A stretch of 64,000 nt of DNA from Candidatus Colenecus caballi (GTDB taxonomy: Bacteria; Bacteroidota; Bacteroidia; Bacteroidales; Bacteroidaceae): the NCBI GenBank assembly GCA_018065615.1, contig JAGHSY010000010.1, forward strand, positions 1-64,000, in the 5' to 3' direction. Made by a program: the position numbers and the translations under genes. Positions 23,442-31,289 of this stretch are shown here, piece after piece. The notes beneath the pieces were generated by a model. That model searched no databases. It saw nothing but the letters and a program-made list of their open reading frames with translations, and was not told the DNA's origin. The number at the start of each line of letters is the position of its first letter. The stretch's first letter is position 1.

Positions 23442-24767
23442 TCATTTGTGGGCTTCATTGAACATTTTCAACCTTTCTTCCAGCAGAGGGAACTGGTCTT
23501 CACGTATGTTCGAAGAACAGCCGCGTATTCCCTGTCTGGTACTGCCCGTAGATTTCAGGGTAATTCCGCTGATTCCGTAGTACAGCAGTTCGTGCAGCAG
23601 CTGGCCGCCTTCCATGGGTGTGCCGTCAGGAAGGTTGTAGCTGAAAGTGAAGAAGAATCCGTTGCTCACGTCCTCATCAAGATCCTTGTCATAAGTGATG
23701 TTGAATCCGTTACGCAGCAGTGCAGCCTTGATCTTTTCAGTGCGGCGCGCATATTCGCGTATGTCCTCACGGAACTTGTAATCACCGTCACATGCGGCTT
23801 TGAGCATGGCAGCCATGGCAAATTGTACAGAATGGGTTACGCCCGATGACATTGCGTACAGCATGTCGTAAGCATAGACGGCACCGAAACGTGAAATGCT
23901 GTAGCGTTTCTGCAGTGTTTCATAACTGCGTACGAATAGTTTGTCCGATATGCATGCGACAGCAATGCGTTCACCGGCATAGCTGAAAATCTTGCTGCCT
24001 GAAAGCATCATGATGTAATTGTCCGTATAATGTGACACGCTGACCTGATAGGGCGCCTTGAAAGGTTCACCCAGTCCTTCACGGCGGAAGTCCATGGTCA
24101 TGTATGCAAGGTCCTCAAGTATGACGGTGTCGTATTTTGTGGCCAATTCACCGATGGTTTTTATCTCACTTTCAGTCAGACACATCCAGCTGGGGTTGTT
24201 CGGATTCGAATAGACTATGCAGCAGATGTTGCCGTTCTTAAGGTAACTTTCCAGTTTTGGAGCCAGTTTTTCGGCACGGAAGTCAGCAACATCGAATGAT
24301 GCTGTCTTTACGCCCATGACATTTGCCTGCATTTTCTGTACAGGGAAACCGGGATCGATGTAAAGGATTGTATCTTTCTTGGGGTCCAGTTGCGAGCACA
24401 GCAGGAATGCTGCGAATGTGCCCTGCATGGCTCCGCGGGTGGGTGTACAGTGGGCGGCCTCAATGTCCGTGTTGATGAAGGCCTTGACAAAACGGGCAGC
24501 CTGTTCCTTTAGTTCGGGTATGCCTTCAATGTTGGGGTATTTTGATGCGACTCCGCGGTCCAGAGCCTCTTTCTGGGCCTTGATACCGACAGCCGATGGC
24601 GGTATGCCGGGCACACCCATTTCAAAATGTATGAACTCCTGACCGGTCACCTTTTCGGCATTCATTTCACAGGCAAGTACCTGACGGATTGAAGCCTTGT
24701 TCAGGTCAGTAATTTCAATCTGCTTGAAGAAATCGTCAATGACGTTTGTAGGAATTAGCGTTTTCAT
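23442..24767 (-). CDS. Pyridoxal-phosphate aminotransferase, class I/II, of the aromatic cluster
   Basis: A 441-residue fold-type I aminotransferase. NPNNPSWMCL (near residue 190) and the PLP lysine in LSGSKIFSYAGERIA (near residue 257) are clear, as is a C-terminal RQGIRGCSS with a candidate carboxylate-binding Arg. It lies 6 bases behind iorB, so its natural partner is the 2-oxo acid handled by IorAB. Transamination of aryl-pyruvate to Phe, Tyr or Trp (or the reverse) is the likely role, inferred from context. It is the last gene of the iorA-iorB unit. Confidence 0.87.
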   Translation of the reverse strand: MKTLIPTNVIDDFFKQIEITDLNKASIRQVLACEMNAEKVTGQEFIHFEMGVPGIPPSAVGIKAQKEALDRGVASKYPNIEGIPELKEQAARFVKAFINTDIEAAHCTPTRGAMQGTFAAFLLCSQLDPKKDTILYIDPGFPVQKMQANVMGVKTASFDVADFRAEKLAPKLESYLKNGNICCIVYSNPNNPSWMCLTESEIKTIGELATKYDTVILEDLAYMTMDFRREGLGEPFKAPYQVSVSHYTDNYIMMLSGSKIFSYAGERIAVACISDKLFVRSYETLQKRYSISRFGAVYAYDMLYAMSSGVTHSVQFAMAAMLKAACDGDYKFREDIREYARRTEKIKAALLRNGFNITYDKDLDEDVSNGFFFTFSYNLPDGTPMEGGQLLHELLYYGISGITLKSTGSTRQGIRGCSSNIREDQFPLLEERLKMFNEAHK

Positions 24768-24773
24768 CGGGAC

Positions 24774-25346
24774 TTATTCGCAGTTGCGGCCAATTTCAAG
24801 GGCCTTGATGTTCATGTCAACTATTGCATCGCCCTTGGCTGAGAAAATGGTACGGACGCTGTCGCACAGCTTTTCAAAACTGATGCTCTTAAGAGCCTTT
24901 GATGCGGCACCAAGCAGTATCATGTTTACAGCCTTTGGCATTTTGTTCTCCTTGCCCAGATTGTCAGTGTCAATGAGGATGACATTCTTCATTTCCTTCA
25001 GTTCACTGATTATGGCGTCAATTTCAGGATAGTTTCCAATATTGACGAACGGGTTCGACGAAGTGATTATCCAGCCGTCAGTTGAAAGGTACTGCTTGTA
25101 GCGCAGGGCTTCCATGGGCTCCATGGCAATGATGATATCGGCCTGACCAAGTGCAATAAGGTCACTGGCAATGGGCTTGTCCGAGATGCGCAGGTTGGAC
25201 TGTACGTCACCTCCGCGCTGGCTCATTCCGTGGACTTCGGCCTGCTTGATGTAAAGGTCTTCAGTAAGTGCGGCCTGACCTATTACTGTAGCGATTGAGA
25301 GGATTCCCTGTCCTCCAACGCCTGCAAGAATTATATCTGTCTTCAT
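24774..25346 (-). CDS. iorB: Indolepyruvate oxidoreductase, beta (gamma-domain) subunit IorB
   Basis: A 190-residue subunit of the 2-oxoacid:acceptor oxidoreductase gamma family. The N-terminal GVGGQGILSIATVIGQAAL and later EVHGMSQRGGDVQSNLRI are diagnostic. With IorA it interconverts aryl-pyruvates and arylacetyl-CoA plus CO2, using a low-potential electron carrier. The start at 25346 gives a four-base ATGA overlap with the iorA stop, the expected coupling; a longer frame reaching 25394 would lie inside iorA. Confidence 0.93.
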   Translation of the reverse strand: MKTDIILAGVGGQGILSIATVIGQAALTEDLYIKQAEVHGMSQRGGDVQSNLRISDKPIASDLIALGQADIIIAMEPMEALRYKQYLSTDGWIITSSNPFVNIGNYPEIDAIISELKEMKNVILIDTDNLGKENKMPKAVNMILLGAASKALKSISFEKLCDSVRTIFSAKGDAIVDMNIKALEIGRNCE

Positions 25347-26950
25347 TTCTGTGCTGCTTTTGCTTTTGCCTTTCGGGCAAGTGTCTGTATGCATTCGCGG
25401 CGCGGTATGATTACTGACAGTCCGCGATATTCAATCTCTTCACGAAGGGTACGTGTTATCTCTTCCATGTTCTGTGGCAGAGGAACGACTACCTTCAAGT
25501 GTTCCGGATCAACTCCGATGCCACGGCAGATGGCTTCGAACTTGTTTGTTCCGGCTGAATCCTGACCGCCGGTCATGCCTGTAGTCAGGTTGTCGCTTAT
25601 GATGACGGTGATGGGAGCGTTTGCGTTCACGGCATCAAGCAGTCCGGTCATGCCTGAATGGGTGAAAGTGCTGTCACCTATTATTGCAACGGCCGGGAAT
25701 ACGCCTGCGTCACTGGCGCCTTTTGCCATAGTGATGCTTGCGCCCATGTCAACGGTGCTGTCAAGAGCCTGGAATGGAGGCAGTGCGCCAAGGGTGTAGC
25801 AGCCAATGTCACCGAACACCTTTGCATCCTTGTAATCCTTGAGGACCAGGTTGATGGCTTCATATACGCTGCGGTGACCGCAACCCTGACACAGGGCAGG
25901 CGGACGTGCTACGATGTTCTTTGCAACTTCAGGATGCGGCAGGACTGAGATGCCCAGAGCTGCCTTGACAATGTCAGGATTGAGCTCGCCCTGACGGGGA
26001 AGTTCGCCTGAAAGGCGTCCGATGATTTCGCAGTCAGAAGGCAGGATACCTTTGATCTGTTCCTCAACGAAAGGCTGGCCGTCTTCGATGACAAGAATCC
26101 TGTCACACTGTTCGGCCATTGTGCGTACGGTCTCAGCGGGAATTGGGTATTGTGACAGTTTCAGCACAGGGAATGGAATGCCATCCGGATAGCATTCTGA
26201 CAGGTAGTTGTATGCGTTTCCGCACGCAATGGCACCCATCTTGAACTTCTTGGCATCGGCCTTGAAACTGTTGAAGGGTGATTCAACGGCCAGACGCATT
26301 ATTTCGGGCTGACGCTCCAGCATTGAAGCGTAGCGGCGTTTTGCTATTGCTGGCAGAAGCACCCAGTCACGGCTGCCGCTTACCGGGTTTAAAGCGTTCT
26401 GTTCACGCTTTTCACCAAGAGTTACCACTGCACGTGAGTGGGCCAGACGGGTGACGGTACGCATCAGAACCGGAAGTTTCAGTGTCTCGGACATGTCATA
26501 GGCGTAAGCCATCATGTTGTAGGCTTCCTGCTGTGATGAAGGTTCCAATATTGGGAGCAGAGCAAACTTTCCGTAGTAGCGGGTGTCCTGTTCATCCTGT
26601 GACGAATGCATTGACGGGTCATCGGCCACCAGAACGACAATACCGCCGTTTACACCGGTGATTGATGAGTTTACGAACGGGTCAGCGGCCACGTTCATGC
26701 CTACGTGCTTCATGCAGACAAGAGCGCGCTTGCCTGCAAATGACATACCAAGAGCAGCTTCCATGGCGGTCTTTTCGTTGACGCACCAGCGGTTGTGGAT
26801 CTTTTCATCAGGGTTCTTGCTGCAGTATCCCTGAATGTATTCCGTGATTTCAGTCGAGGGTGTCCCGGGATAGGCGTAAACTCCGCTAAGTCCGGCATCA
26901 ATAGCACCCTGCGCAATGGCTTCATCGCCAAGTAACAGTTTCTTTGCCAT
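25343..26950 (-). CDS. iorA: Indolepyruvate oxidoreductase, alpha subunit IorA (short form)
   Basis: A 535-residue thiamine-diphosphate subunit. N-terminal region: GDEAIAQGAIDAG, YPGTPSTEIT, NEKTAMEAALG. C-terminal TPP domain: LCQGCGHRSV, FGDIGCYTLG and GDSTFTHSGMTGLLDAV with ISDN. The protein ends soon after RRECIQTLARK. The C-terminal double [4Fe-4S] ferredoxin domain present in archaeal IorA (about 600 or more residues) is absent, so electrons must come from another protein. It has its own promoter at 26976 behind the symporter terminator. Confidence 0.93.
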   Translation of the reverse strand: MAKKLLLGDEAIAQGAIDAGLSGVYAYPGTPSTEITEYIQGYCSKNPDEKIHNRWCVNEKTAMEAALGMSFAGKRALVCMKHVGMNVAADPFVNSSITGVNGGIVVLVADDPSMHSSQDEQDTRYYGKFALLPILEPSSQQEAYNMMAYAYDMSETLKLPVLMRTVTRLAHSRAVVTLGEKREQNALNPVSGSRDWVLLPAIAKRRYASMLERQPEIMRLAVESPFNSFKADAKKFKMGAIACGNAYNYLSECYPDGIPFPVLKLSQYPIPAETVRTMAEQCDRILVIEDGQPFVEEQIKGILPSDCEIIGRLSGELPRQGELNPDIVKAALGISVLPHPEVAKNIVARPPALCQGCGHRSVYEAINLVLKDYKDAKVFGDIGCYTLGALPPFQALDSTVDMGASITMAKGASDAGVFPAVAIIGDSTFTHSGMTGLLDAVNANAPITVIISDNLTTGMTGGQDSAGTNKFEAICRGIGVDPEHLKVVVPLPQNMEEITRTLREEIEYRGLSVIIPRRECIQTLARKAKAKAAQK

Positions 26951-27065: not shown

Positions 27066-28649
27066 TCAGTCTTTCTTTTCCTCTTCCATGAGTGATGTCA
27101 TTGCTCTTACTGTTACTGTCTTTTCGTAGCAGCCGAACATCTTTTCGACATTCTCCTTGTCATGAACACGGGTGAATGCACTTACTATCGGTACAATTAC
27201 AAGACCCAGAAGCATTGCCAGAACACCGGCGTTGATGGGTGATGTGAAGTACGGGCTGATGAAGGTCTTATGTGTGAAGGTGCAGTACATGCAGCCGCAC
27301 ATTATGAGAATGCCGCAGATAAAGCTAGCCCAAACTGAAGCTTTAGTGGTTTTCTTCCAGTACAGCCCCCATAGGAAGGGTGCCAGGAATGCACCTGCCA
27401 GTGCGCCCCATGAAATACCCATGAGCTGAGCAATGAAGGTCACGGAACTCTTGGCCTGGATGATGGCCAGGACAGACGATACTGCAATGAAGAACAGGAC
27501 CAGCAGTCTGATTGACAGCAGCTGTGACTTTTCGGACATTTCCTTTCCTGATTTGCTCATGGCAGGTTTGATGATGTCAAGTGTCGGGGTTGAGCCCGAT
27601 GTCAGAACCAGCGATGAAAGCGTTGACATTGATGCGGAAAGCACCAGAATGATTACGACTCCGATCATCAGGTCAGGCAGTGTCTGGAGCATTGAGGGAA
27701 CAATGCTGTCGAAGATGGGCTTGCCGTTTGCTCCGTATTCTATCACGTCGCCGTACAGACGTCCGAATCCGCCAAGGAAGTAGCAGCCGCCGGCGACTAT
27801 GATTGCAAAGAATGTTGAGATGAATGTGCCTTTCTTGATGGCGTTTTCATCGCGTATGGCGTAGAATTTGCCAACCATCTGAGGAAGTCCCCATGTGCCA
27901 AGTGAAGTCAGAAGGACAACGCCAAGCAGGTATATGGGTTCCGGTCCGAAGAATGATGTGAAGGCGCCGTGAAGAGCGGGAGCTGTCTCGGCCGGTATGG
28001 CTGAAAGCTTCTCAATTGATGCGGTGAAACCGCCGTTTCCGTTAAGTACGGCAATGATGACGGCTACTATGCCGACCAGCATGATCATACCCTGAATGAA
28101 GTCGTTGATGGCAGTGGCCATGTATCCGCCTACCAGCACATATATGCCGGTCAGTACGGCCATACCCAGTACGCACCATGTGTAGTCAATGTTGAATGAC
28201 ATGCCGAACAGTCGTGACAGACCGTTGTACAGGGATGCGGTATATGGAACCAGGAATACGAATACTATGACCGATGCTGCAACCTTGAGTGCGCTTGAAT
28301 TGAATCGGGCTCCGAAGAAGTCGGGCATGGTAGCGCTCTTAAGGTACTGTGTCATAAGGCGTGTGCGGCGGCCAAGCAGTCTCCATGCCAAAAGTGAACC
28401 TATAACAGCGTTGCCTATACCTATCCATGTCGATGCAATGCCGTACTTCCAGCCGAACTGTCCGGCGTAGCCTACAAAAATGACGGCCGAAAAATAACTT
28501 GTGCCGAAAGCGAAAGCTGTCAGCCAGGAGCCCACGTTACGGTCTCCCAATACAAAGCCCTGCACATTGCTTGTGCTTTTGTGGCAGTAAATGCCTACGC
28601 CGATCATTACGGCGAAGAAGAGTACTAGAATGAAGATTTTCAGAAACAT
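27066..28649 (-). CDS. Sodium:solute symporter (SSS family) of the aromatic cluster
   Basis: A 527-residue multi-spanning transporter with about 13 membrane helices. SSS family segments include YCHKSTSNVQGFVLGDRNVGSW-type start, AFAFGTSYFSAVIFVGYAGQFGW, GGYMATAINDFIQGMIM and LSASMSTLSSLVLTSGS. It uses the sodium gradient to import an organic solute. It sits between the ACT regulator and iorA, within the Tyr-attenuated transcript, so an arylacetate or another aromatic carboxylate is a reasonable candidate substrate, but the sequence does not show this. Confidence 0.88.
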   Translation of the reverse strand: MFLKIFILVLFFAVMIGVGIYCHKSTSNVQGFVLGDRNVGSWLTAFAFGTSYFSAVIFVGYAGQFGWKYGIASTWIGIGNAVIGSLLAWRLLGRRTRLMTQYLKSATMPDFFGARFNSSALKVAASVIVFVFLVPYTASLYNGLSRLFGMSFNIDYTWCVLGMAVLTGIYVLVGGYMATAINDFIQGMIMLVGIVAVIIAVLNGNGGFTASIEKLSAIPAETAPALHGAFTSFFGPEPIYLLGVVLLTSLGTWGLPQMVGKFYAIRDENAIKKGTFISTFFAIIVAGGCYFLGGFGRLYGDVIEYGANGKPIFDSIVPSMLQTLPDLMIGVVIILVLSASMSTLSSLVLTSGSTPTLDIIKPAMSKSGKEMSEKSQLLSIRLLVLFFIAVSSVLAIIQAKSSVTFIAQLMGISWGALAGAFLAPFLWGLYWKKTTKASVWASFICGILIMCGCMYCTFTHKTFISPYFTSPINAGVLAMLLGLVIVPIVSAFTRVHDKENVEKMFGCYEKTVTVRAMTSLMEEEKKD

Positions 28650-28671: not shown

Positions 28672-29088
28672 TTATTCCCAACCCTGAATAAGTGTAAGAC
28701 CAGCTTTGACGGCCACCTGTTCAGCTTTCTCAAGACTTGCAGGACGGATAATGAGCACCAGCTTGCCGTCCTTGTGGAATGTGTACAGGTAACTGATTGT
28801 AACTCCGCCTTCAGTCAGGGTGTCAATTGCGTCTGCAAAAGCGCTGGTATTGGACTCGACCTGAATGGCCATGACCTCATTGATGTTGACAAGATTGCCC
28901 TTTTCTGAGAGCAGGCGTGCAGCCTTTGTCTGGTCCGATGTTATCAGACGCAGAATGCCGAATTCTGTAGTGTCGGCAACCGATGCTGCCTGAATTTCTA
29001 TGTTCTCGTTCTTGAGTGCTGTGAGGATGTCACCCAGCTTGCCGTGCTGGTTCTCAAGGAATATTGAAATCTGCTTGATGGTTTTCAT
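28672..29088 (-). CDS. Tandem ACT-domain protein
   Basis: A 138-residue protein made of two ACT-like units (about residues 3-68 and 70-136). The first begins IKQISIFLENQHGKLGDILTALKNENIEIQAASV; the second contains TSAFADAIDTLTEGGVTISYLYTF. ACT domains bind small molecules, mostly amino acids. Stand-alone double-ACT proteins beside phenylacetate-CoA ligase genes recur in anaerobes, and amino-acid sensing is inferred rather than shown. It is 12 bases behind paaK and 22 before the symporter, hence cotranscribed. Confidence 0.87.
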   Translation of the reverse strand: MKTIKQISIFLENQHGKLGDILTALKNENIEIQAASVADTTEFGILRLITSDQTKAARLLSEKGNLVNINEVMAIQVESNTSAFADAIDTLTEGGVTISYLYTFHKDGKLVLIIRPASLEKAEQVAVKAGLTLIQGWE

Positions 29089-29100
29089 AATGCTTTTTTA

Positions 29101-30402
29101 TTAATGGTTCTGACGCAAATCTACTACTCTCTTGGCTTTTCCATCGGACTGGGGAATGACGCCTTTGCCGACCAGCTTGACCTTTGGTGTGAGCAGGATC
29201 TCATCCTTCAGGCGGCGTGTTATCTCCTTAGTCAGGTTCTGCAGCATTGCAAAATCATCTGTAGCCTCCTTGAGTTCGGCTTCAACGGTCATCTCATCGT
29301 TGTCACCAATGGTTTCTATTGTAATAAGGTAGTCGCTTGCAAGTTCGGGGAACTGCATGAGAATCTTTTCGATCTGTATTGGGTATGTGTTCACGCCCTT
29401 GATGATCATCATGTCATCACTGCGGCCCTGGAAGCGGTCCAGACGCTTGTGTGTACGTCCGCATGGGCAGTCTCCCGGAATGATGCGGGTAAGGTCACGT
29501 GTGCGGTAACGGAACAGCGGCATGGCTTCACGGTTCAGTGTGGTCAGTACCAGTTCTCCGATTTCTCCTTCCGGAACAGGTTCCAGAGTTTCCGGATCGA
29601 GAATTTCAACAATGTAGTTGTCTTCCCAGATGTGCATGCCGTTCTGCTCCTGACATTCAATGGCCACGCCCGGTCCGCACATTTCACTCATTCCGAAATT
29701 GTTGTATGCCTTTGCTCCCCATATTTCCTCAATACGTTTGCGCTGTGCTTCAGAATGGGGCTCTGCGCCTATAATCAGTGTCTTCACTGTGGTTTCACGC
29801 GGGTTGATGCCCTCTTCTTCAAAGGCGGCTGCCAGTCGGGTGGCGTATGAAGGGATGCAGTGCAGTGCGGTTGTTCCAAAGTCTGTGATGAACTTGACGT
29901 GACGCTTAGAGTTGCCGGCTCCAGCAGGAACTGTCAGTGCTCCAAGACGTTCTGCGGCATACTGGATGCCAAGACCGCCCGTGAACATTCCGTAGCCCGA
30001 TGTGTTCTGTATGATGTCAGTCGAACGCAGTCCGATGCAGTACATTGAGCGTGCCATGGCATCGGCCCATTCGTCAAGGTCCTTCTTTGTATGAAGGATT
30101 ACGGTAGGATTGCCTGTTGTGCCGCTTGATGAGTGCAGACGGACCACTTTGTCCAGTGAGCATGATGCAATGCCGAACGGATATGTGGCGCGCAGGTCAT
30201 TCTTGGTTGTAAAGGGGAACTTACGGATGTCCTCCACTGACTTGATGCTCTCTGGGGTAATGCCCAGTTCCTTGAATTTGGGAGCGTAGAACTTGCTGCC
30301 CATTGCAATTTCAACCGTCTTCTTGAGACGCTCTACCTGCAACTGTTCAAGCTGCTTGCGCGGCATTGTTTCAATCTCCTCATTCCAGAATTTGCTTTCC
30401 AT
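29101..30402 (-). CDS. paaK: Phenylacetate (arylacetate)-CoA ligase
   Basis: A 433-residue adenylate-forming enzyme. The ATP motif HSSSGTTGNPTVILHTK (near residue 90), FGMSEMCGPG, FRYRTRDLTRI and the C-terminal RSDDMMIIKGVNTYPIQIEK match the PaaK/coenzyme F390 synthetase family. It converts phenylacetate or a related aryl acid, ATP and CoA to the aryl-CoA. The start at 30402 (MESKFWNEE) is chosen because the longer frame to 30507 runs through the attenuator hairpin. It is the first structural gene behind the Tyr leader. Neighbouring iorAB suggests its product feeds reductive carboxylation. Confidence 0.92.
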   Translation of the reverse strand: MESKFWNEEIETMPRKQLEQLQVERLKKTVEIAMGSKFYAPKFKELGITPESIKSVEDIRKFPFTTKNDLRATYPFGIASCSLDKVVRLHSSSGTTGNPTVILHTKKDLDEWADAMARSMYCIGLRSTDIIQNTSGYGMFTGGLGIQYAAERLGALTVPAGAGNSKRHVKFITDFGTTALHCIPSYATRLAAAFEEEGINPRETTVKTLIIGAEPHSEAQRKRIEEIWGAKAYNNFGMSEMCGPGVAIECQEQNGMHIWEDNYIVEILDPETLEPVPEGEIGELVLTTLNREAMPLFRYRTRDLTRIIPGDCPCGRTHKRLDRFQGRSDDMMIIKGVNTYPIQIEKILMQFPELASDYLITIETIGDNDEMTVEAELKEATDDFAMLQNLTKEITRRLKDEILLTPKVKLVGKGVIPQSDGKAKRVVDLRQNH

Positions 30403-30436: not shown

Positions 30437-30470
30437 AAAAAAAAGACCTGCCTCAATGTGGGGCAGGTCT
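30437..30470 (-). terminator. Attenuator terminator before paaK
   Basis: On the minus strand AGACCTGCC (30470-30462) pairs with all nine bases of GGCAGGTCT (30452-30444) around a nine-base loop, followed by an eight-base T run (30444-30437). It lies between the Tyr-rich leader peptide and paaK, so it must act inside the transcript as an attenuator. Confidence 0.9.
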
Positions 30471-30555
30471 GTATGATGTTTGTCATGATGTTCTTTGAAA
30501 CATACACCTCCTGGCCCCACGGTTACGTGCGGTAATAATAGTAATAATAGGAGGT
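30458..30555 (-). promoter_or_regulatory. Alternative pairings of the Tyr attenuator (pause hairpin and antiterminator)
   Basis: Minus strand. ACCTCCT (30555-30549), immediately before the first Tyr codon, can pair with AGGAGGT (30512-30506). The overlapping GTGGGGCCAGG (30520-30510) can instead pair with CCTGCCCCAC (30467-30458) over ten pairs with one bulged C. The second pairing consumes the left arm of the terminator and so prevents it. A ribosome stalled on Tyr codons would cover the first segment and favour the antiterminator. A ribosome reaching the stop codon at 30525-30523 would cover the antiterminator arm, which begins two bases further on. Confidence 0.82.
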
Positions 30556-30570
30556 AACGTTGAACTTCAT
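30523..30570 (-). CDS. Tyrosine-rich leader peptide
   Basis: A 15-codon reading frame, MKFNVTSYYYYYYRT and stop, with six consecutive Tyr codons (TAT TAT TAC TAT TAT TAC) and one Phe codon. It starts about 22 bases downstream of the predicted transcription start and ends just before the antiterminator. This is the classic form of an amino-acid-sensing leader peptide, comparable in logic to pheL or trpL of enterobacteria. It implies that the downstream genes respond to charged tRNA-Tyr. Confidence 0.88.
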   Translation of the reverse strand: MKFNVTSYYYYYYRT

Positions 30571-30598
30571 CTCTTTGTTCCGTTTTTATTTTCGAGTG

Positions 30599-30628
30599 CA
30601 AATATATGCAAAATTTGTGTTCGCCAAA
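30599..30628 (-). promoter_or_regulatory. Promoter of the Tyr leader and paaK operon
   Basis: Minus strand TTTG (30628-30625), 18 bases, then TATATTTG (30606-30599): a full Bacteroidota -33/-7 promoter. Transcription would begin near 30593, giving an attenuated leader RNA of about 150 bases. Confidence 0.75.
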
Positions 30629-30674: not shown

Positions 30675-31289
30675 CTATTCATTATTAGCAAAAAATACTT
30701 TGTAATGAACGGGTTCATTGCGGAAAACTTCCTTGTCAATGACAATCTGGTCCGGCAATGGCCTGACAGATAGACAGTCCTCCATGACCACCTTTATGGA
30801 CAAGCCGTCATAGCTGGCTGCAACTGTATCTCGGCCGCATATGCAGCCCGATGGTACGGCTGCAGCTATATGCAGTTTGTCAAATTCTCCGTAATAATAG
30901 TCAAATACTTCCAGAAAACAGCTGTCAGCGTAAAGAGTCAGCTGGCGGTCTATCCTGACCTTGTTGTCATAAATCAGCCATGAAGGAAATGTTTCATGAA
31001 GGATTATACGTTCCGAATTCCAATCGACAATTTCAATGCCGGCTCTGTTCTCGGGCAGATAAAATCCTGACGTGCCTATGGGGGCGGTGCCGCCCAGTCC
31101 GGTTACGCTGCTGTTAGCCTTGCCATTGACCATAACCGCACCGGGAATGCTGTCAAGCTGGAACTGGAGTTTCAGATTCCTGTTCCAGATTGTGAATGCG
31201 CTCTCCGTTCGCTCAAATCCTACAGGCCGGTTCTGAGTACATGCTGTCAGCATTAAGGCCGATATGGCCGCAAGAATCTTTATTTTCAT
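30675..31289 (-). CDS. Lipoprotein of unknown function
   Basis: A 204-residue protein with a lipoprotein signal (LMLTACTQ, Cys near residue 17). The rest is beta-rich, with QLTLYADSCFLEVFDYYYGEFDKLHIAAAVPSG in the middle. That stretch is loosely reminiscent of DUF4861-type proteins, but the match is too weak to name a family. The start codon overlaps the sufE stop by four bases, so it is the last gene of the long minus-strand run from the nucleoside kinase. No function is proposed. Confidence 0.7.
   Translation of the reverse strand: MKIKILAAISALMLTACTQNRPVGFERTESAFTIWNRNLKLQFQLDSIPGAVMVNGKANSSVTGLGGTAPIGTSGFYLPENRAGIEIVDWNSERIILHETFPSWLIYDNKVRIDRQLTLYADSCFLEVFDYYYGEFDKLHIAAAVPSGCICGRDTVAASYDGLSIKVVMEDCLSVRPLPDQIVIDKEVFRNEPVHYKVFFANNE

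Follow-up and report, generated by a model that had tools for sequence, protein, structure and literature searches.

A leader on the minus strand of the window, the 64,000-nucleotide stretch of Candidatus Colenecus caballi DNA analyzed here, very likely senses the availability of charged tRNA-Tyr through ribosome-mediated transcription attenuation. The operon behind it probably converts arylacetates to tyrosine (and phenylalanine). Sequence comparison and folding models agree that the leader is real and conserved, and most likely a Tyr attenuator of the ribosome-mediated type. The hallmarks of this class appear together in the leader, with an open reading frame carrying a codon run for a single amino acid, a terminator, alternating pairings and a spacing predicted to suit them.

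Leader anatomy and predicted switching

The leader is preceded by a Bacteroidota-type promoter (30599..30628, minus strand), in which TTTG (30628-30625) is followed by an 18-base spacer and TATATTTG (30606-30599). TAnnTTTG-like boxes also occur upstream of the leaders of relatives. The leader peptide ORF (30523..30570, minus strand; ATG at 30570, TAA at 30525-30523) encodes the 15 residues MKFNVTSYYYYYYRT and has homologues in relatives. Its regulatory codons are six consecutive Tyr codons, TAT TAT TAC TAT TAT TAC (30532..30549). The pattern (TAY)6 occurs only once in the 2.25 Mb genome, at the leader, and the reversed control pattern is absent. Just upstream of the leader promoter, an ORF (30675-31289) of 204 aa without a matching Pfam or NCBIfam family has a lipoprotein-like start.

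Folding and covariation define the segments of the leader RNA. The outer arm of segment 1, ACCTCCT (30549..30555), pairs with AGGAGGT, and both sides change together in relatives. Nested within this stem is an inner stem, CCGCACG/CGTGGGG, in which the antiterminator arm is the partner of the inner arm of segment 1 (30526..30532), formed by the end of the last Tyr codon and the Arg-Thr codons. Segment 2, CGTGGGGCCAGGAGGT (30506..30521), provides both the inner and the outer partner of segment 1 and contains the 5' antiterminator arm GTGGGGCCAGG (30520-30510). Segment 3, AGACCTGCCCCAC (30458..30470), contains CCTGCCCCAC (30467-30458), which pairs with segment 2, and AGACCTGCC (30470-30462), which pairs with segment 4. 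The GTGGGGCCAGG/CCTGCCCCAC helix has ten pairs and one bulge. Segment 4, GGCAGGTCT with the U run (30437..30452), supplies the 3' arm and tail of an intrinsic terminator. The 3:4 stem with its T8 is located about 35 bases upstream of paaK, between the leader ORF and the first structural gene.

The initial annotation had described the TTTG-18-TATATTTG promoter, the 15-codon peptide with six successive Tyr codons, the ACCTCCT/AGGAGGT pairing and the ten-pair antiterminator just as they are found here. It had also read eight U after the AGACCTGCC/GGCAGGTCT stem; the stem and the T8 are present, but the first T closes the stem and seven follow. The three pairings that it called mutually exclusive all exist, though it overlooked the inner stem on which their exclusivity depends. 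Because of the inner stem, the antiterminator arm itself lies within the 1:2 structure, and the pairings are therefore truly exclusive. An H-type pseudoknot combining the outer stem and the antiterminator was set aside, since the inner stem makes ordinary exclusion sufficient.

Beyond the anatomy, conservation, covariation and folding behavior documented here, we infer a response to Tyr-tRNA. Transcription would start just past TATATTTG, and a ribosome would translate MKFNVTSYYYYYYRT. With plentiful Tyr-tRNA, the ribosome would reach the stop codon and cover GTGGGGC, leaving segment 3 free for segment 4, and the 3:4 pairing would halt RNA polymerase on the U run, some 35 bases short of paaK. 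With scarce Tyr-tRNA, a ribosome stalled on the Tyr run would cover segment 1, segments 2 and 3 would pair as the antiterminator and the operon would be read through. If the leader is not translated, segment 1 (outer and inner stem) would keep segment 2 and the terminator would form.

Ribosome-masked folding reproduces both ribosome states. The mask covered 28 bases, the footprint generally assumed for a ribosome, with the A site on a given codon, and the RNA was folded up to segment 3. With the ribosome on any of Tyr1-6, the antiterminator forms at -22.4 kcal/mol before segment 4. When the ribosome sits on the stop codon instead, the antiterminator does not form, leaving the terminator free, in line with the spacing originally proposed for the two states. 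Among 16 distinct leaders before paaK, 15 form the antiterminator at every Tyr position and one fails at two. In the stop-codon state, zero 2:3 pairs are left in 13 of these leaders, and 3, 7 and 8 in the others. For leader L149 of genus g7, zero 2:3 pairs are counted, the antiterminator arm being inside a longer ORF and outside the counted region. Shuffling only the segment-2 spacer yields equally good switching by chance in 25 of 1000 sequences (2.5%). The folding test alone is thus only suggestive, and its weight comes from repetition in relatives.

Conservation and covariation among relatives

A homologous leader is found directly upstream of paaK in 16 of 37 same-genus genomes, the present one included; the covariance model recovers the 15 others at E-values of 1e-13 to 1e-27. 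The remaining 21 carry the operon with no leader at paaK, so leader control is dispensable. The Tyr run and the stems had been expected to persist in relatives. The outcome is mostly favorable to the proposal: sixteen of the 37 congeners keep both, and in the other 21 the element is missing in its entirety. In the PaaK protein tree, leaders occur in every deep branch of the genus, and five changes are required, at least three of them on well-supported branches. The distribution fits an ancestral leader that would have been lost several times. Short ATG ORFs with Y5R in 399 genomes of the family all lie upstream of paaK or of an SSS transporter. Across 21 leaders, the Tyr codons show mostly TAT/TAC swaps, with rare Phe, Cys or His. 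Outside the family, the (TAY)6 loci inspected in the sampled order include only two short ATG ORFs, neither with a following gene in the stretch read. A second, weak hit of the covariance model in the own genome (G000:C108) was discarded, its surrounding genes being unrelated.

The proposed check for covariation favors the 1:2 and 3:4 stems, which score above all 500 shuffles. Together with the unique (TAY)6 run, the homologues before paaK and the placement of the Y5R ORFs, this speaks against a chance occurrence. In the model-fitted alignment, which leans towards its own structure, 18 of 22 pairs show changes on both sides. Two-sided changes affect 48 cells versus 18.3 in shuffles, and none of the 500 shuffles reaches 48. 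A MAFFT-only alignment leads to the same verdict (14/22 two-sided pairs, 0/500 shuffles). The inner stem (helix 2) is paired in 91% of cells. The terminator stem (helix 3) is the best conserved part, with 96% of cells paired and two-sided changes in 9/9 pairs. For the 2:3 stem, absent from the model, 92.5% of cells are paired versus 35-80% when slid. Two of its pairs changed on both sides, and covariation alone is modest, with 32 of 500 shuffles reaching the score (alignment A2).

The conservation of the leader bears on two readings without regulation by tyrosine. That conservation peaks at the terminator would suit a plain intrinsic terminator accompanied by a non-regulatory Tyr-rich sORF. 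We consider this highly improbable, as codon identity, segment 1, the inner stem and the antiterminator are all conserved as well, and the codons of sister leaders match their own pathways. Alternatively, PaaK might have an N-terminal extension starting from GTG at 30507, or AGGAGGT might be a ribosome-binding site, the pairings being fortuitous in both cases. The frame is indeed open from 30507 through the PaaK stop, and AGGAGGT resembles a Shine-Dalgarno sequence. However, 97%-identical relatives have no such extension (open frames of 435-437 versus 473 aa), which rules it out, and the covariation of AGGAGGT with its partner in relatives rules out the Shine-Dalgarno reading, so that a fortuitous origin of the pairings is barely credible.

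Sister leaders and known attenuators

The same covariance model detects leaders with Phe/Tyr runs (FYFYYF type) in several genera of the Bacteroidaceae, where they precede prephenate dehydratase (pheA), as well as AYFYYFWFTRQ leaders upstream of a DAHP synthase in congeners (both among L154-L160 and L135-L148). Codon content tracks the pathway across these sister leaders, a correspondence that lends amino acid sensing strong, though indirect, support. The leaders point to classical attenuation with pathway-matched codon choice in Bacteroidota, where the catalogue of such systems seems small.

Among Rfam families, none attains its cut-off in the window. Leu_leader (RF00512) comes closest, matching over its full length with 25.9 bits versus a gathering threshold of 50 (E 0.0019). 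T-box riboswitch models match neither the window at gathering score nor the leader region at E-values up to 1. As in the enterobacterial trp, his, leu and pheA leaders, a short ORF with a regulatory codon run is combined with 1:2, 2:3 and 3:4 pairings and a terminator before the first gene. Unlike these, the present leader belongs to another phylum with another promoter, contains regulatory codons for Tyr only and precedes an arylacetate route instead of the chorismate pathway.

Within the same phylum, structured 5' regions before amino acid operons of Flavobacterium psychrophilum give clues of leader-peptide attenuation, though neither a Tyr leader nor an arylacetate operon is named in the main-text passages in question (passages of PMC9723704). 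Bacteroides thetaiotaomicron has sORFs reminiscent of leader-peptide attenuation (PMC7366714). Given both reports, leader-peptide attenuation is not new in the phylum. Methanococcus maripaludis builds aromatic amino acids from aryl acids (work cited in a passage of PMC4162585). That route is likewise a second path to these amino acids and involves indolepyruvate oxidoreductase (IorAB), but it is archaeal, and the passage makes no mention of an attenuator. The open literature searched, outside which most subscription journals lie, yielded neither a Tyr-specific leader on an arylacetate operon nor a paper joining leader peptide, tyrosine codons and attenuation. The mechanism is classical; new with respect to the literature searched is its unusual place, a Tyr-specific leader on an arylacetate operon.

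The operon and the target of control

The operon comprises six genes on the minus strand. The first encodes a PaaK-like arylacetate-CoA ligase of 433 aa (29101..30402; Pfam AMP-binding; TIGR02155 with 461 bits, cut-off 646), followed by an ACT domain pair protein (28672..29088; Pfam ACT_8) and an SSS-family sodium:solute symporter (27066..28649). Further downstream are IorA, the alpha subunit of indolepyruvate:ferredoxin oxidoreductase (25343..26950; TIGR03336 with 523 bits, cut-off 651), IorB, the beta subunit (24774..25394; NF005324 with 293 bits, cut-off 222), and, as the last gene, a PLP-dependent class I/II aminotransferase (23442..24767; PF00155). The CoA ligase, both IOR subunits and the aminotransferase thus share one operon. 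By established biochemistry, this is the gene set required for arylacetate uptake, activation, reductive carboxylation to arylpyruvate and transamination. The operon probably serves salvage from arylacetates to aromatic amino acids; we infer pathway direction and substrate. Arylacetate would be taken up, activated to arylacetyl-CoA, reductively carboxylated by IorAB and transaminated to tyrosine (and phenylalanine). Read as tyrosine/phenylalanine salvage, the operon loses the apparent oddity of having a Tyr leader.

Tyr leaders are also detected by the covariance model in two other genera (g7 and g22), upstream of an orthologous SSS gene of about 80% identity. No other operon gene is present in these neighborhoods, and PaaK is encoded elsewhere in the g7 and g22 genomes, without a leader. 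In the genus of the window, PaaK and ACT are placed in front of the SSS transporter, with PaaK first after the leader. Since the g7 and g22 leaders precede the SSS gene alone, the transporter is the shared target of all Tyr leaders found. The initial annotation had proposed a Tyr attenuator in front of a phenylacetate-CoA ligase operon; the attenuator is supported, whereas the gene common to all Tyr leaders is the transporter and not the ligase. As judged from gene neighborhoods, transport, not ligation alone, is the shared target, and the Tyr leader offers a handle on the candidate substrate of the SSS transporter.

The genome, a metagenome-assembled genome of 91% completeness, encodes chorismate synthase and DAHP synthase; prephenate dehydratase (PDT) and prephenate dehydrogenase (PDH) were not detected in it. 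The leader-bearing relatives G016 (98% complete), G017 and G019 likewise have no detectable PDT or PDH. Loss of PDT is tied to the leader (7/16 genomes with versus 1/21 without it; Fisher p 0.012, uncorrected for ancestry), and loss of PDH shows no significant tie (4/16 versus 3/21). In a cell without PDT and PDH, arylacetate salvage would be the obvious tyrosine route short of uptake, and a switch at Tyr starvation the expected control. Conversion of phenylacetate to Phe is possible in rumen cultures (PMC7356843). It seems an even call whether salvage of 4-hydroxyphenylacetate is the main or only tyrosine route after loss of pheA and tyrA, with a Tyr-only, ribosome-sensing attenuator, itself a member of a family of aromatic leaders in Bacteroidaceae, turning on uptake and activation at Tyr starvation.

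Falling slightly short of an even chance is a reading in which the attenuator is real but physiologically serves uptake, with the SSS protein importing tyrosine or an aryl acid. The ligase and carboxylation genes would have joined the regulated unit in this genus. The homologous leaders of g7 and g22, with their lone SSS gene and a leaderless PaaK elsewhere, argue for such a role. However, the genus of the window has PaaK first behind the leader, with no ligase-free unit seen, and the nearest solved structures of the SSS protein are sugar symporters. The operon might even be degradative and convert aromatic amino acids to arylacetates, leaving the Tyr run a curiosity or perhaps a sign of inverse control. 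IOR-type enzymes are reversible, and in some gut bacteria they serve to oxidize aromatic amino acids (PMC13290082; general knowledge). Degradation is nevertheless unlikely, as attenuators of such geometry switch on at starvation and would have the wrong sign, the ligase family uses ATP and the own genome has no detectable PDT or PDH. PaaK-IorAB could either make or consume arylacetates, and the Tyr-starvation switch would provide a regulatory readout of direction in this gut module. Such a switch would favor the biosynthetic direction.

Gene arrangement varies among close relatives. In one 97%-identical relative (L002 9405-12959), the genes for the aminotransferase, IorB and IorA face paaK-ACT-SSS in convergent orientation, which leaves only paaK-ACT-SSS under leader control there. 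A second PaaK of the genus, 45% identical, has no leader upstream, either in the own genome (G000:C79) or in two relatives (L117, L118); the sequence ahead of it appears to be a divergent neighboring gene. At 535 aa, IorA follows the IOR_alpha profile no further than position 540 of 595, its C-terminal ferredoxin-like part seemingly being absent, and the electron carrier may differ.
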